DNA from: an uncultured Candidatus Entotheonella sp.
GTDB taxonomy: Bacteria > Tectomicrobia > Entotheonellia > Entotheonellales > Entotheonellaceae
Assembly: GCA_951828535.1 (NCBI GenBank)
Contig: OX639990.1
Span: forward strand, 3,273,300 to 3,337,299
Reading direction: 5' to 3'
Length of the DNA: 64,000 nucleotides
Within the stretch, counting starts at the first letter, position 1. Each line of letters starts with the position of its first letter. This document shows, piece by piece, positions 16,231 to 24,291 of the stretch. The translations under genes were made by a program, and so were the position numbers. The notes under the pieces were generated by a model. It was not told the DNA's origin. It saw nothing but the letters and a program-made list of their open reading frames with translations, and searched no databases.

Positions 16231-16359
16231 CGAGCCGAGAGGGTCCAACTGCTTCACCACTGCCTCCGTCTGTTGAGATAGCATTTCGGCGGGCGCCAAA
16301 GCACGCATCGTTTCAGGAATGTTCAGAGAGAAAAATCATTGGGTTATGGAAAGCGAGGA

Positions 16360-16388
16360 ATCATATAATGCGTGCCCAAGGCCGTCAA
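16360..16388 (-). promoter_or_regulatory. Sigma70 promoter for aspS-era-recO
   Basis: On the minus strand, TTGACG (16388-16383) and TATGAT (16365-16360) are separated by 17 bases, a near-consensus promoter. Transcription would begin near 16353, leaving about a 120-base leader to ATG 16230. Confidence 0.75.
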
Positions 16389-16490
16389 GATAACCCTTCG
16401 CTCGAGAGCCTCGAGCATGGCTTGTGCCGGGTGAGTGTCAGACCTCTGTGCGCACTCACTTGAGCCAGTAATCGGGTCGGGTGCGAGTCG

Positions 16491-16518
16491 TTGACCCTCG
16501 CAAAACTTTAAGTACACT
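16491..16518 (+). promoter_or_regulatory. Candidate promoter of the three-gene ATPase operon
   Basis: TTGACC (16491-16496) and TACACT (16513-16518) are 16 bases apart, in the gap between the divergent aspS promoter and the first operon gene. Transcription would begin near 16525, giving about a 105-base leader. Apart from these two promoters I see no gene in 16309-16630. Confidence 0.5.
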
Positions 16519-16630
16519 ACCCCAACCCCGGGAACGCCATCCGGGCTACACAGGTGTGTTGCACAGCAGTAAGCCAGACAATTTGGCAGCGCGCGTCCGG
16601 TGTCGCACAGCTAATTATGGAATCCCGTTC

Positions 16631-17053
16631 ATGACGTATCCTGCCGATTTCACCGACGCCCATCGCCGGCATTGGGAGGATGCCGAATTGTTGTTTGCCA
16701 AAGACCGCTGGGCAAATGCGGATCAACTGTATGGGTTCAGCGCGGAGTGCGGATTGAAGGCGGTTATGAAGGCGTTGGGGATGTGGATCGACCCTATAAC
16801 CGGGAGCCCCAAGAATAAGTACCGACAGCATGTGCAGGACCTCTGGCCAGTATTCGCTGGCTTCGCACAAGGCCGACAAGGGGGGCGATACCTCCACTTG
16901 CTTCCAGGCGGCTCACCGTTCGCAAATTGGTCACACCATGATCGCTACGGACATCACAGCAACTTCTCGAAACAGAGCGTTGCACAGCATCGCAAAGCGG
17001 CGTGGGAAATTCGTCGCATGGTGCGACGTGCAATCCAGGATGGTCTGTTATGA
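16631..17053 (+). CDS. Small HEPN-like protein, first gene of a three-gene ATPase operon
   Basis: A 140-residue soluble protein. Residues about 8-50 (from DFTDAHRRHWEDAELLF through RWANADQLYGFSAECGLKA) have the two-helix pattern of HEPN-type proteins, many of which are RNases or RNase-like partners of ATPases. The C-terminal part is His/Arg-rich (SHHDRYGHHSNFS). A classical R-x4-6-H catalytic motif is not clear, so RNase activity is only a possibility. I see no SAM-binding motif. ATG 16631 is preferred over an upstream extension with no protein-like sequence. Its TGA overlaps the next start (ATGA), implying coupled translation. Confidence 0.72.
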   Translation: MTYPADFTDAHRRHWEDAELLFAKDRWANADQLYGFSAECGLKAVMKALGMWIDPITGSPKNKYRQHVQDLWPVFAGFAQGRQGGRYLHLLPGGSPFANWSHHDRYGHHSNFSKQSVAQHRKAAWEIRRMVRRAIQDGLL

Positions 17054-18369
17054 ATGCCAACTTCGTTTCATTCGACGACATGCAGGACCGGGTTGCTGAC
17101 GTGCTTAGGGCCACGGAAGCAATGCCGGGCGCTATCGACCGTTTGTATTTGGTGCGGGATTTGTTCGGCCGCGTACGCATATCCGTTTCGGATGCCGTTG
17201 AAGATGACGAGTCATGCCAGGACGCACTAAAACACTTCGCTAGGAATCTGCACCGGGAGCTCGGCCCACACGGCTACAGCGAGGAAGAAGCAATTCTGTT
17301 CGTGGATGAAGAAATGCTCGAAGAGATCAGTGAAACTGCGCGGCCGCTTGTCTCAAGTGGACAGACAGGGCACACCATGTCCAGGGCGTACTGGGTCGAA
17401 CGTCTGGTAACCGGCCAAAGTTGGTGGTCCATGGCAGCACAGCCAGAAGCCGGGACAAGGCGATTCACACTCTACTCGGTCAAGGGCGGTGTCGGCCGCA
17501 GCACCACCGTAGCTGTGCTCGCGTGGCACTTGGCCCGCAACGGCCAGCGGGTCATGGTCGTCGACCTTGACCTGGAATCACCGGGGTTGTCGTCCGCGAT
17601 GCTCGATGCGCGTCAGCACCCGCGGTTCGGTATTGCCGACTGGTTCGTGGAGGATTTGGTTGAGCAGGGCGACCGCGTTGTTGAGGCGATGACTGCTGCT
17701 GCGCCGGTATGGGCGCAAGATTTTGACGGTGATGTCCGTGTGGTTCCCGCATACGGCAGCAAGCCTGGCGAGTATCTGGCCAAACTTGGCCGCGTTTACA
17801 TGGACACCCACGAGTCTTGGGCAATGCGCCTCAATCGTCTGGTGTCGCGGCTTGAGGATGCGCACAAACCATCAGTTGTCCTGTTGGAAAGCCGCAGCGG
17901 TCTACACGATATCGCGGCGGCGACCGTCACGGGCCTGCATGCCCAGGTATTACTTTTTGCCCTCGACTCGGACAGCCATTGGGCCGACTATACCATCCTG
18001 TTTCGACACTGGCAGGAACAGGAGGTGGCGGCAGCGATCAGGGAACGGCTGTCTATCGTGTCGGCGCTGACTCCAGAACTCGACACGGAATCGTACTTGC
18101 GACGATTCCGGGAACGCGCTTGGAATCTGTTCCGTGACCATCTATATGATGACGTGCCGCCGTTCAACGACGACGGCGACCCCTTCTCGTTTGATCTTCC
18201 CGATGACGATGCCCCCCACGACCCGCTCGCTATCCACTGGACGCGGGGCCTTGCCGCGGGCGCGTCGCTGCGTAACTTGGAGCAGACGACCGTGAGGCAA
18301 GCTTATGAATCATTCCTGGCGCGTTTCGACACCTTGGTGGCGTTCGACAGCAACGGAGAAGCAAGATGA
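17050..18369 (+). CDS. ParA/MinD-like ATPase with KGGVGR Walker A variant
   Basis: A 439-residue protein. The first 135 or so residues are an uncharacterised acidic N-terminal domain. A SIMIBI ATPase then begins with the deviant Walker A YSVKGGVGRSTTVAVLA (K145, with Arg where ParA/MinD have Lys or Thr), followed by VMVVDLDLESPGLSS and later VVLLESRSG and LLFALDSD. This variant matches the family called KGGVGR-motif AAA ATPases. The acidic C-terminal region (DDVPPFNDDGD) is unlike a partition ParA, and no ParB or centromere-like repeat is nearby. It overlaps both neighbours by ATGA, so one complex is likely. A defence role is inference. Confidence 0.82.
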   Translation: MNANFVSFDDMQDRVADVLRATEAMPGAIDRLYLVRDLFGRVRISVSDAVEDDESCQDALKHFARNLHRELGPHGYSEEEAILFVDEEMLEEISETARPLVSSGQTGHTMSRAYWVERLVTGQSWWSMAAQPEAGTRRFTLYSVKGGVGRSTTVAVLAWHLARNGQRVMVVDLDLESPGLSSAMLDARQHPRFGIADWFVEDLVEQGDRVVEAMTAAAPVWAQDFDGDVRVVPAYGSKPGEYLAKLGRVYMDTHESWAMRLNRLVSRLEDAHKPSVVLLESRSGLHDIAAATVTGLHAQVLLFALDSDSHWADYTILFRHWQEQEVAAAIRERLSIVSALTPELDTESYLRRFRERAWNLFRDHLYDDVPPFNDDGDPFSFDLPDDDAPHDPLAIHWTRGLAAGASLRNLEQTTVRQAYESFLARFDTLVAFDSNGEAR

Positions 18370-19820
18370 ACGGCGGGATTGATCGAGACATGGCACGACA
18401 GGCACTCGCCAATATGCCGGAAGGAACGAGCTACGGTGAGAGGCCGACGCTGAAGCAAGTGTACCTGCCACGCTCCCACGCCAAGGCGCTAGACATGAAT
18501 AACCCACTGGTGACCGGCATGCGCGGGGCCGGCAAGACCTTCTGGTGGAGTGCGCTGCAGGAACCATCTGTACGTCAACTCGTAGGCCAGTCCGGCGCCT
18601 CGTCCACCTTGGACGAGAGAACTGAGGTGCGAATCGGGTTCGGGTTGAAACCCGCGATAGACGATTATCCAAGTAAGGACGTCCTGCATCAACTCATGAA
18701 CCAGGGCATCGAACCGAGGATCATCTGGCGAACCGTGCAAGCTCGACAACTTGCTCCAGGCGACCATCCGATCCGTCAACAGATCCAGTGGCCTGAGCGG
18801 ACGGTGTACGTCAAGCAGAATCCAGAGACGATCGACCGTCTGTTTCAACAGCGTGACGAGGAATTCGACCGTCAGGGCACCTACTTCCTTCTTCTGTTCG
18901 ATGCCCTCGACCGCTGTGCCGACGACTGGAAAGAAATGTACCCCGCAATCCGAGGTCTTCTGCAAAACGCCCTTGATTGGCTCTCGTACCGGCGTCTCCG
19001 GGTAAAGGTATTTTTGCGCTCCGACCAGATCGACGAAAACGAGGTTGCCGATTTCCCAGACGCCTCGAAAGTTCTTGCTTCAAGCGTTGAGTTAAACTGG
19101 CCTCGAAACGAGTTGTACGGCCTTTTGTGGCATTACCTGGCAAATGGACAAAACGGTGGGGAATTTCAAACATTTCTTGCCCCTGCCAGCCCCTGGCCTT
19201 CCGTGGAAGTTGGCAGCCAAAATGTCGTAACTGTGCCGCGGCCCCTCAGAGAAGACCGTCAACGCGAGAAGTTCCATGACATGGCTGGTCCATGGATGGG
19301 GCGTGGTCCGAAACGCGGCTTTCCGTACACTTGGATACCCAATCACTTGGGCGACACCGAGGGTAGAGTAAGTCCACGCTCTTTTCTCAAAGCACTCCGA
19401 ATGGCTGCCGAGGATACCGCGGACCAGTACCCCGACCATGACAAAGCTTTGCATTTCGAGAGCATCAAGCGGGGTGTGCAAGAAGCGTCGAGGACGCGGG
19501 TGGCGGAACTCCGAGAGGACTACCCGTGGGTGGATAAGGTCCTACAGTCGCTCCACGGCATGGTCGTTCCCTGTGAGTTTGCCGAGATTGAGGCACGCTG
19601 GAACGCCGAGGGCGTCCTTGATCGTCTTACGGACGAAGTCGACCAAAATGCCGTGAAGTTGCCCCCCAGCCGAATCGACAGGGGCGCCAATGGTGTTCGG
19701 GAAGATCTCGAATCGCTACGCGTCTTCTGGAGGGCGCAGGACGACCGGGTGAACATTCCTGATGTCTTCAGAGTAGGCTATGGCCTTGGACGACGGGGCG
19801 GCGTCAAGCCTGCTAAGTAA
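18366..19820 (+). CDS. P-loop ATPase, third gene of the operon
   Basis: A 484-residue protein with Walker A GMRGAGKTFWW (about 51-61) and Walker B FLLLFDALDRCADDW (about 174-188). VKVFLRSDQIDENE behind them resembles the sensor region of STAND/KAP-like NTPases. The remainder is soluble and helical; I recognise no nuclease, TIR, protease or transmembrane segment. Translation begins in an ATGA overlap with the KGGVGR gene. With the HEPN-like gene this gives a small protein plus two unlike ATPases, a build often seen in anti-phage or abortive systems. Family name and function are not established here. Confidence 0.75.
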   Translation: MNGGIDRDMARQALANMPEGTSYGERPTLKQVYLPRSHAKALDMNNPLVTGMRGAGKTFWWSALQEPSVRQLVGQSGASSTLDERTEVRIGFGLKPAIDDYPSKDVLHQLMNQGIEPRIIWRTVQARQLAPGDHPIRQQIQWPERTVYVKQNPETIDRLFQQRDEEFDRQGTYFLLLFDALDRCADDWKEMYPAIRGLLQNALDWLSYRRLRVKVFLRSDQIDENEVADFPDASKVLASSVELNWPRNELYGLLWHYLANGQNGGEFQTFLAPASPWPSVEVGSQNVVTVPRPLREDRQREKFHDMAGPWMGRGPKRGFPYTWIPNHLGDTEGRVSPRSFLKALRMAAEDTADQYPDHDKALHFESIKRGVQEASRTRVAELREDYPWVDKVLQSLHGMVVPCEFAEIEARWNAEGVLDRLTDEVDQNAVKLPPSRIDRGANGVREDLESLRVFWRAQDDRVNIPDVFRVGYGLGRRGGVKPAK

Positions 19821-20316
19821 AGGCGCTGTAATCCACGCCATGGGCTCTCGGCCAGTCAATGGTTGCCTATCCCCAGGGAACACCGCACCGATACCCGCCG
19901 CACATTTCACAACAAGCGAGTTTTGTTGCAGCGTGTTGCGAGCAATTGCGGACCGGATCTTGCGATTGGAGCATGCCAGTGTTGTCCGGTCGTTTCGGAC
20001 CTGCCCCGCACATTAACGCATCATGCTGAGCCGTCGAACGGTAGCCGCCGCCATGCAGCGCCTGGAAGACTGCGCGGCCCGCGTGTGGGAGCGGCCGCTG
20101 CTCTGCCTGGCGGCGGGACTGCTGGGCGGCAGCGCTGCCAATGCGGTGGCCCATTTTCCCGCCCCGTTGGTCGTCGGCGTGCTGGCAGCGGTGGGGTTGG
20201 GGCTTTTGCCCCGCTGGCCCTGCGTCGCCACGCGGCGGTGTTGTCGCGTGGCGTTTCTCGGGTTGTTATTGACTTCTCTGCATCTCGGCTGGCAAGGCCT
20301 GCCGTTACCGCCTGAG

Positions 20317-21791
20317 CTCGACTTTGTACAAAATGAAGGAGTATTCAGGGACACCGCCGCCCGTATTGTAAGATGGCAGTTTCTACCCAAACCATCTTGC
20401 AGCGAGGTCAGCGATGTCCCCTTCAGCAAACACTAGCACCCTACTGGCGCCCTTTCAAAGTCTCTTCAGCGCACCCACTTGGCGCAAAGTCCAACGCCTG
20501 TTCATCGGAACCCTGTTGGCCCGCGGACGGCGCACCGTGACGGCGGCCTTGAGGCACACGGGGCTGGACGACACCCCGTCGTTCAGTCTCTACCATCAGG
20601 TGTTCAACCGCGCCCGATGGTCCGCCCTCAAAGGCAGTCGCTGTCTGTTGGCCCTGCTGATGCAGACCTTTGATGTTGCTGGTGGCAGCCTCACGTTTGT
20701 CATTGATGAGACGCTAGAGAGGCGCTGGGGCCGACGCATCAACAAGCGCGGTCACTACCGCGACCCGTTGGCTTCCAGCCGCAGGCGTGCCGTGAGCACC
20801 AGTGGGCTGCGCTGGATCGTGCTGACCCTGGTCATCACGCCACCCTGGAACAACCGTTGTTGGGCTTTACCTATCTTGAGCGTGCCGGCGCCAACACCAC
20901 AAGTCAGTGAACGCCTGGGACTGAGACACAAGACCATCGCCCAGTGGGCACGCCAGATGATCCGGGTGGTACGGCGCTGGCTGCCACATGCCGCTATCAC
21001 CGTGCTTGGGGATCAAGCCTACAGTGTCCTTGAACTCGGGCATGCCTGCCGACAGTGTCAGGTGCGCCTGATTGCCCCCTTGCGCCTTGATGCGGTTCTC
21101 CATGAAGCGCCGCCGCCGCGCCAGCCGGGCACGCGGGGACGACCCCGTCGCAAGGGCAAGCGATTGCCCAGCTTGGCCGAGCGCCTGCGCGATGCGGCGA
21201 CTTCTTGGCAGTCTCTGCGTGTGCGCTGGTACGATGGCCGCGTGCGACGCTTGCAAATCAGTAGCGGGACTGCCCTGTGGTACCGCAGTGGCCAGCCGGT
21301 GCTGCCGCTCCGGTGGGTTCTGGTACGTCCCTGCGACGCTCAGCACCCGCCACGGGCCTTCTTCTCGACGTGTCCCGGTGATCGGGCAGGTGATATCGTG
21401 GCATGTTTCATCAAGCGCTGGAGCATTGAGACGACCTTTGAAGAGAGCCGCGCCCACCTGGGCTTCGAGACTCAACGCCAATGGTCAGACTTGGCGATTG
21501 AACGCACGACGCCGTGCCTGCTGAGCTTGTATTCGATCGTGGCGCTGTTGGCTCATGGCCTGTACCTGGAGGGTCGTTTGGCGGTGCGCCGAAGCACTTG
21601 GTATGCCAAGAAGCAGGCGACCTTCAGCGATGCCTTGGCGTCGGTGAGGCGGTGTCTGTGGGAGGCCGAGTATTTTTCAACATCGGCCTCCGACGCCGAT
21701 AGGGTGGAAATTCCTCGGGTTCATTTGCAGCGCTTGATGCAATCGGCCTGTTATTCGCACTGACACCTATCAAAGTTTGTACAAAGTCGAG
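20317..21791 (+). mobile_element. Complete insertion sequence in comEC (1,475 bp)
   Basis: Perfect 16-bp terminal inverted repeats bound the element: CTCGACTTTGTACAAA at 20317-20332 and its reverse complement at 21776-21791. Both sides are flanked by the direct repeat CTGAG (20312-20316 and 21792-21796), a 5-bp target duplication. It encodes one DDE transposase read in the same direction as comEC. Clean ends, perfect repeats and an open transposase frame suggest a recent, possibly still active copy. Confidence 0.93.
20414..21763 (+). CDS. DDE transposase of the comEC insertion sequence
   Basis: A 449-residue transposase of the broad IS4/IS701-like type (DDE_5-like endonuclease). The first acidic residue lies in TFVIDETLERRWGRR, the second in TVLGDQAYSV, and the Glu in RWSIETTFEESRAHLGFETQ, the usual WxxExxFxExRxxLG pattern. 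A helical N-terminal DNA-binding region starts LLAPFQSLFSAPTWRKVQ. GAGGT lies upstream of the ATG. The frame is intact. A 5-bp duplication is atypical for classical IS4 (9-12 bp), so the exact IS family needs a database comparison. Confidence 0.9.
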   Translation: MSPSANTSTLLAPFQSLFSAPTWRKVQRLFIGTLLARGRRTVTAALRHTGLDDTPSFSLYHQVFNRARWSALKGSRCLLALLMQTFDVAGGSLTFVIDETLERRWGRRINKRGHYRDPLASSRRRAVSTSGLRWIVLTLVITPPWNNRCWALPILSVPAPTPQVSERLGLRHKTIAQWARQMIRVVRRWLPHAAITVLGDQAYSVLELGHACRQCQVRLIAPLRLDAVLHEAPPPRQPGTRGRPRRKGKRLPSLAERLRDAATSWQSLRVRWYDGRVRRLQISSGTALWYRSGQPVLPLRWVLVRPCDAQHPPRAFFSTCPGDRAGDIVACFIKRWSIETTFEESRAHLGFETQRQWSDLAIERTTPCLLSLYSIVALLAHGLYLEGRLAVRRSTWYAKKQATFSDALASVRRCLWEAEYFSTSASDADRVEIPRVHLQRLMQSACYSH

Positions 21792-24132: not shown

Positions 24133-24206
24133 TGGGGAATCGTACAACGGCAGTACTCCAGACTCTGGATCTGGCTATCTAGGTTCGAATCCTAGTTCCC
24201 CAGCCA
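24133..24206 (+). tRNA. tRNA-Gln (CTG)
   Basis: The cloverleaf is complete. Acceptor TGGGGAA pairs with TTCCCCA, the anticodon stem CCAGA/TCTGG encloses loop CTCTGGA (anticodon CTG), and the T-arm is CTAGGTTCGAATCCTAG. The discriminator is G and the 3' CCA is encoded. Confidence 0.95.
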
Positions 24207-24218
24207 ATTCCGGCACGT

Positions 24219-24291
24219 GGCCCTATCGTCTAGCGGTCTAGGATCTCGGCCTCTCACGCCGAAGACACGGGTTCGAGTCCCGTTGGGGCTA
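24219..24291 (+). tRNA. tRNA-Glu (CTC)
   Basis: Acceptor GGCCCTA pairs with TGGGGCT (G-U at the first pair). The anticodon stem TCGGC/GCCGA encloses CTCTCAC (anticodon CTC), and the T-arm is ACGGGTTCGAGTCCCGT. The 3' CCA is not encoded, so it relies on the CCA-adding enzyme at 35887-37305. It lies 12 bases after tRNA-Gln and is probably co-transcribed. Confidence 0.94.

Follow-up and report, generated by a model that had tools for sequence, protein, structure and literature searches.

A three-gene HEPN and ATPase cassette of the catalogued candidate PDC-M28, a probable defence locus and possible NTPase-gated immune module

The three-gene cassette between aspS and comEC in the window (the whole stretch of DNA analysed, 64,000 nucleotides) is, with near certainty, a member of PDC-M28, the phage-defence candidate, multi-gene 28, of PADLOC-DB. 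A defence role of PDC-M28 is probable. With a probability of roughly 0.6, the cassette is a self-contained, NTPase-gated abortive-infection immune module in which C would be the sensor, B the switch and A the effector; under this reading C would sense, B would gate, A would be a toxic RNase and the whole would act against phages.

Identity and layout of the cassette

All three proteins matched the PDC-M28 profiles of PADLOC-DB 2.0.0 over nearly their full length (A: PDLC04558, E 6.4e-48; B: PDLC04559, E 2.1e-141; C: PDLC04561, E 6.9e-173), and the genes are adjacent, on a common strand and in the order A-B-C. The combination, which the first-pass annotation had put forward as a candidate undescribed system, is already catalogued as PDC-M28 and hence not unnamed. 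Such candidates were found by 'guilt by embedding', and experimental validation is pending for most of those discussed in a 2026 survey (PMC12988326). Among open papers and a minority of preprints, no paper naming PDC-M28 or testing any of its members was found, and a search on KGGVGR among open papers gave nothing relevant. The cassette lies on the plus strand and its genes are coupled via two ATGA overlaps. The features are as follows:

16491..16518, + strand: promoter-like TTGACC-N16-TACACT 5' of A, weak, 9/12 consensus matches
16631..17053, + strand: gene A (PDC-M28A), 140-aa protein with a modelled HEPN fold, PF05168-like
17050..17053, + strand: ATGA overlap, stop of A and start of B
17050..18369, + strand: gene B (PDC-M28B), 439-aa predicted KGGVGR-variant ParA/MinD-fold ATPase with an N-terminal domain of about 130 aa without recognised fold
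18366..18369, + strand: ATGA overlap, stop of B and start of C
18366..19820, + strand: gene C (PDC-M28C), 484-aa protein modelled as a STAND/ORC-Cdc6-like AAA+ ATPase
16309..19913, no strand: apparently acquired segment from aspS to comEC; the junction is empty in genome G001 and holds a TnpB-like gene in genome G003

Both overlaps and the motifs KGGVGRST, GMRGAGKT and LLLFDALDR were present as originally described, as were the divergent orientation of aspS (start at 16308) and the IS element that splits comEC downstream of the trio. A promoter belonging to the cassette itself, also claimed by the first-pass annotation, is weakly suggested: the TTGACC-16-TACACT site does lie 113 nt ahead of A, in a region that holds 4 such sites compared with 1.2 ± 1.0 in shuffles.

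The IS element in comEC (20317-21791 of the window) encodes a 449-aa transposase and is bounded by terminal inverted repeats CTCGACTTTGTACAAA and a 5-bp duplication, CTGAG. Intact comEC (842 aa) is found in the sister genome, L002. Since three identical full copies of the element are present in the genome to which the window belongs, the disruption looks recent. Two tRNA genes lie 3' of comEC (24133-24291), the segment with the first of them being conserved in G001 and G003; a search for RNA families between 13 and 25 kb of the window returned these two tRNAs and nothing else.

The three predicted proteins

Following structure prediction by AlphaFold (pLDDT 91), the model of A was compared with known structures by structural alignment. 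The top seven were all HEPN proteins or HEPN homologues (Z 13.2-10.3), among them 1ufb (13.2), the sacsin HEPN domain (12.6), 2hsb (12.4), 1wol (12.0) and 1o3u (11.5), and for helical folds unrelated to these Z dropped to about 7. Foldseek gave no significant E-value, yet its top ranks were filled by HEPN structures. A single comparison of profiles aligned 49 A proteins along their full length with nine PF05168 proteins (E 2.7e-7); in this alignment E39, K43, H67 and R105-Y106 of A correspond to the E, K, H and RY that PF05168 conserves. Pfam and PDB sequence searches with A and C alone were uninformative: A of the window stayed below the PF05168 cut-off, without a match. Some of its relatives did match PF05168 (best E 4.9e-5) or AbiV, and no other Pfam HEPN family was matched by them; the HEPN-like gene of locus L066 exceeds the PF05168 cut-off. 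By modelled fold and by profile, A is a HEPN protein, as initially proposed, and the idea of an enzyme unrelated to HEPN was rejected on the basis of the model.

G35, E39, K43, R105 and Y106 are invariant in 49/49 A proteins, and H67 is conserved. The canonical HEPN motif Rx4-6H occurs in 17 of the 49; the active-site pair looked for in A of the window is absent, the corresponding stretch reading RYGHHSNF. RNase activity of A is uncertain for this reason. An alternative conserved histidine was described for some PF05168 proteins and AbiV in the 2013 HEPN survey (PMC3710099), and H67 is a candidate for this role in A.

C carries the Walker A motif GMRGAGKT and the Walker B motif LLLFDALDR. Its model (pLDDT 90) had BrxC of BREX as best Foldseek match (7e-6), and structural alignment returned an archaeal STAND-type ATPase (2qen, Z 13.9), CED-4 (Z 13.4), NRC4 and ORC/Cdc6 (about 12), with further resemblance to MuB and TnsC; at rmsd 5-6 Å these alignments assign a class, not a family. 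C thus models as a STAND/ORC-Cdc6-like AAA+ ATPase, which bears out its earlier description as a P-loop ATPase.

The range of folds resembling C, together with the lack of Rx4-6H in most A proteins, leaves some room for A being a catalytically dead HEPN adaptor, with any defence exerted by the ATPases: for example, C would load on DNA like MuB or ORC, and B, a positioning switch of the ParA kind, would stop replication or conjugation. The E..K, H and RY motifs are moreover common to PF05168-type HEPN proteins, whose catalytic status varies (PMC3710099). The invariance of R105-Y106, E39 and K43 is however unusual for a mere adaptor, and of the three genes A is most often the one disrupted with the other two still open (see below); we regard a dead adaptor as decidedly unlikely.

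The KGGVGRST motif occupies residues 145-152 of B. Against NCBIfam NF047398 (AAA_KGGVGR), B scored 175 bits, above the curated cut-off of 90, in agreement with the first reading of this protein, and it lies far below the cut-offs of the ParA/MinD equivalogs. K145, G146, G147, G149 and R150 are invariant in 26/26 relatives; in all 26 the Walker lysine is replaced by R150, so that the sequence departs from the deviant Walker A motif, KGGxGK, of ParA/MinD partition ATPases. Based on these profile and motif data, B is classified as a ParA/MinD-fold ATPase of the KGGVGR-variant type. The fold of B could suit an accessory operon that serves partition or stress and has no link to defence. As had been noted at the outset, no ParB, parS or partition gene was seen beside the trio, either among its neighbours in the window or at annotated plasmid loci; this, the arginine in the P-loop, the HEPN and STAND partners and the position of relatives inside DISARM and BREX-2 make such an operon highly improbable. 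A partition operon as such was rejected in view of the missing partners and the altered P-loop.

Co-inheritance, decay and mobility

The order A-B-C on one strand was found in 28/29 genome-contig loci, some with decayed copies, the exception being L010, which lacks A. These loci span Acidobacteria, Gammaproteobacteria, Spirochaetes, Latescibacteria, Rhodothermales, Anaerolineae and others. The same order was present in 10/11 plasmid loci and in 17/17 further genome regions, so the question of whether it is kept across unrelated genomes is answered by dozens of cases, well above what chance would give. The distance matrices of the three proteins correlated with one another (Mantel r 0.931, 0.932 and 0.959), none of 999 permutations reaching values as high. 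The outcomes that the first-pass annotation had named as speaking against it, namely constant parB/parS neighbours, a lack of co-conservation or a non-HEPN A, were not encountered.

Two loci carry fusions. In L016 a single open reading frame encodes both B (6-422) and C (440-917). In L066 (3185-6318; G003:C229), from the same taxonomic family as the window, a HEPN (PF05168) gene is followed by a 922-aa divergent fusion of KGGVGR-ATPase and C-like domains. These fusions suggest that B and C work together as a single machine. About 6 kb ahead of its fused B-C gene, L016 has another KGGVGR-type ATPase gene (631 aa; 612-2504), distinct from the fused one. On a plasmid of Streptomyces NBC_01216, a C gene without recognisable A or B lies about 8 kb from dndC (L042:8902-10392); it may be an orphan, or part of a variant that uses different partners.

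Nine loci have lost A or carry it in broken form (L004, L008, L010, L012, L013, L014, L023, L027 and L030); the same is true of B in three loci and of C in two. As the loci had been found via C, decay was tested for A against B: A was the affected gene in 5/5 loci where exactly one of the two is broken, and B never the sole loss (P about 0.0009 by gene length). In L008 an internal deletion takes out the RY motif of A, in L010 A is absent, in L013 it is interrupted by an insertion bearing terminal inverted repeats, and the frameshifts in L012 and L014 are possibly assembly errors. Decay starting with A would be expected if A were a costly effector; A may instead be dispensable. The place of the missing A in L010 (6848-8502) is taken by two genes that overlap, encode 233 and 317 aa and match nothing in PADLOC; they might stand in for A.

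The GC content of the cassette is 0.58 compared with 0.64-0.66 in its flanks, its 3.2-kb GC ranking third from lowest of 305 in the window, and GC3 is 0.62-0.67 compared with 0.75-0.83 for neighbouring genes. The comparison of base composition proposed earlier thus points to acquired DNA. In the same-family genome G001, aspS and comEC are 69 bp apart with nothing in between. G003, of the same family, has its own trio elsewhere and a TnpB-like gene at this junction (L062:9746-10933), which, set against the trio in the window, suggests that the junction is an insertion hot spot. C is only 43-45% identical to its counterpart in G003 and reaches 60-66% identity to counterparts in other phyla, the identity of aspS to that of G003 being 75%. 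Taken together, the identities of C, the drop in GC and the empty site indicate that the trio is horizontally mobile and was probably acquired here by insertion. Its distribution is patchy: 10/386 broadly drawn genomes (some matches weak), and 4/396 and 17/195 in two phyla. No copy was found in 50,697 phage records and viral contigs, and a search of E. coli genomes with an Enterobacter homologue gave no match.

Defence neighbourhoods, proposed mechanism and known systems

The BREX-2 operons of Thiodictyon pTs417, Streptomyces NBC_01334, Sphaerotilus and G248 contain the trio, placed between pglW/pglX and the genes that come later, and the DISARM operons of L010, L019, L021 and L030 contain it between drmMI and drmA; DISARM genes adjoin it in L006 and L027. 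HmaA-like helicases are located beside it in L012 and L018, HsdR in L025, and a type III-like helicase or a TIR gene near other copies. A DISARM or BREX-2 setting was recorded for at least 10 of 58 examined loci, a raw count without background rate and a lower bound, as the search was limited to selected marker proteins. Many relatives have no recognised defence neighbour. Localization in defence islands, which had been proposed as a check, therefore holds for relatives inside DISARM and BREX-2 and not for the copy in the window, which is flanked by aspS and comEC outside any defence island; DrmA was looked for in its own genome and not found. The DISARM operons of L019 and L021 include, next to the trio, an IetS (IetAS) gene, and L021 also has PDC-S64; a single host system can thus accumulate several add-on modules.

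A toxin-antitoxin or addiction module would have HEPN toxin A silenced by B (and C) and would stabilise a cassette or plasmid without specific sensing of an invader. A HEPN of the MAE_18760 family with a ParA/Soj ATPase has been predicted as a toxin-antitoxin dyad (PMC3710099), the trio occurs on plasmids, and loss of A with B and C kept is what is expected if the toxin decays first. Against this, two large conserved ATPases would be costly for a plain antitoxin, A matches no Pfam HEPN families except PF05168 and AbiV, and the repeated position inside DISARM and BREX-2 points to immunity. An addiction module is accordingly considered rather unlikely, if the strongest of the alternatives.

As an immune module, the trio would work as follows. 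C, as judged by its modelled fold alone, would sense a nucleic acid or phage protein as the sign of an invader and respond by a change in nucleotide state or by oligomerisation. B, with its altered P-loop, would form a complex with C and serve as the switch that restrains and then releases A. The HEPN effector A would probably cut RNA, leading to a growth stop and abortive infection. More tentatively, the mechanism of this tripartite switch may be new: a ParA-fold ATPase without P-loop lysine, physically coupled to a STAND/ORC-type sensor, would gate a HEPN effector devoid of the canonical active site, the whole being a plug-in back-up effector inside DISARM and BREX-2. With the folds, the invariant residues, the B-C fusions, the decay of A first and the repeated insertion into two unrelated host systems, PDC-M28, one of many candidates defined only by profiles, becomes a concrete, testable mechanism. 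The insertion of the trio into DISARM as well as BREX-2 suggests that suicide modules are interchangeable parts, recruited by large DNA-targeting systems.

The dyad of MAE_18760 HEPN and ParA/Soj ATPase (Anantharaman et al. 2013, PMC3710099) likewise pairs a HEPN protein with a ParA-fold ATPase; the trio differs in its PF05168/AbiV-like HEPN, its KGGVGR-variant ATPase and its third, STAND-type ATPase. The STAND-ORC ATPases BrxC and DUF499 (HmaC) of BREX and Hma have an ATPase fold of the same kind as C, and the ATPase of Hma/BR type 1 frequently carries a fused HEPN (PMC12839542). C, however, is 484 aa long, the PDB sequence search showed no match between it and BrxC, and the module lacks a methylase and a helicase. 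To the P-loop ATPase Sll1717 family (NF047389, ATPase_Sll1717), C is only weakly alike, residues 151-425 scoring 55 bits where the curated cut-off is 75. The PDC-M28 catalogue entry agrees with the locus in all three proteins, their order and their sizes; it comes without described mechanism or experiment in open papers, and the folds, the motif state, the host systems and the decay pattern are what is added here.
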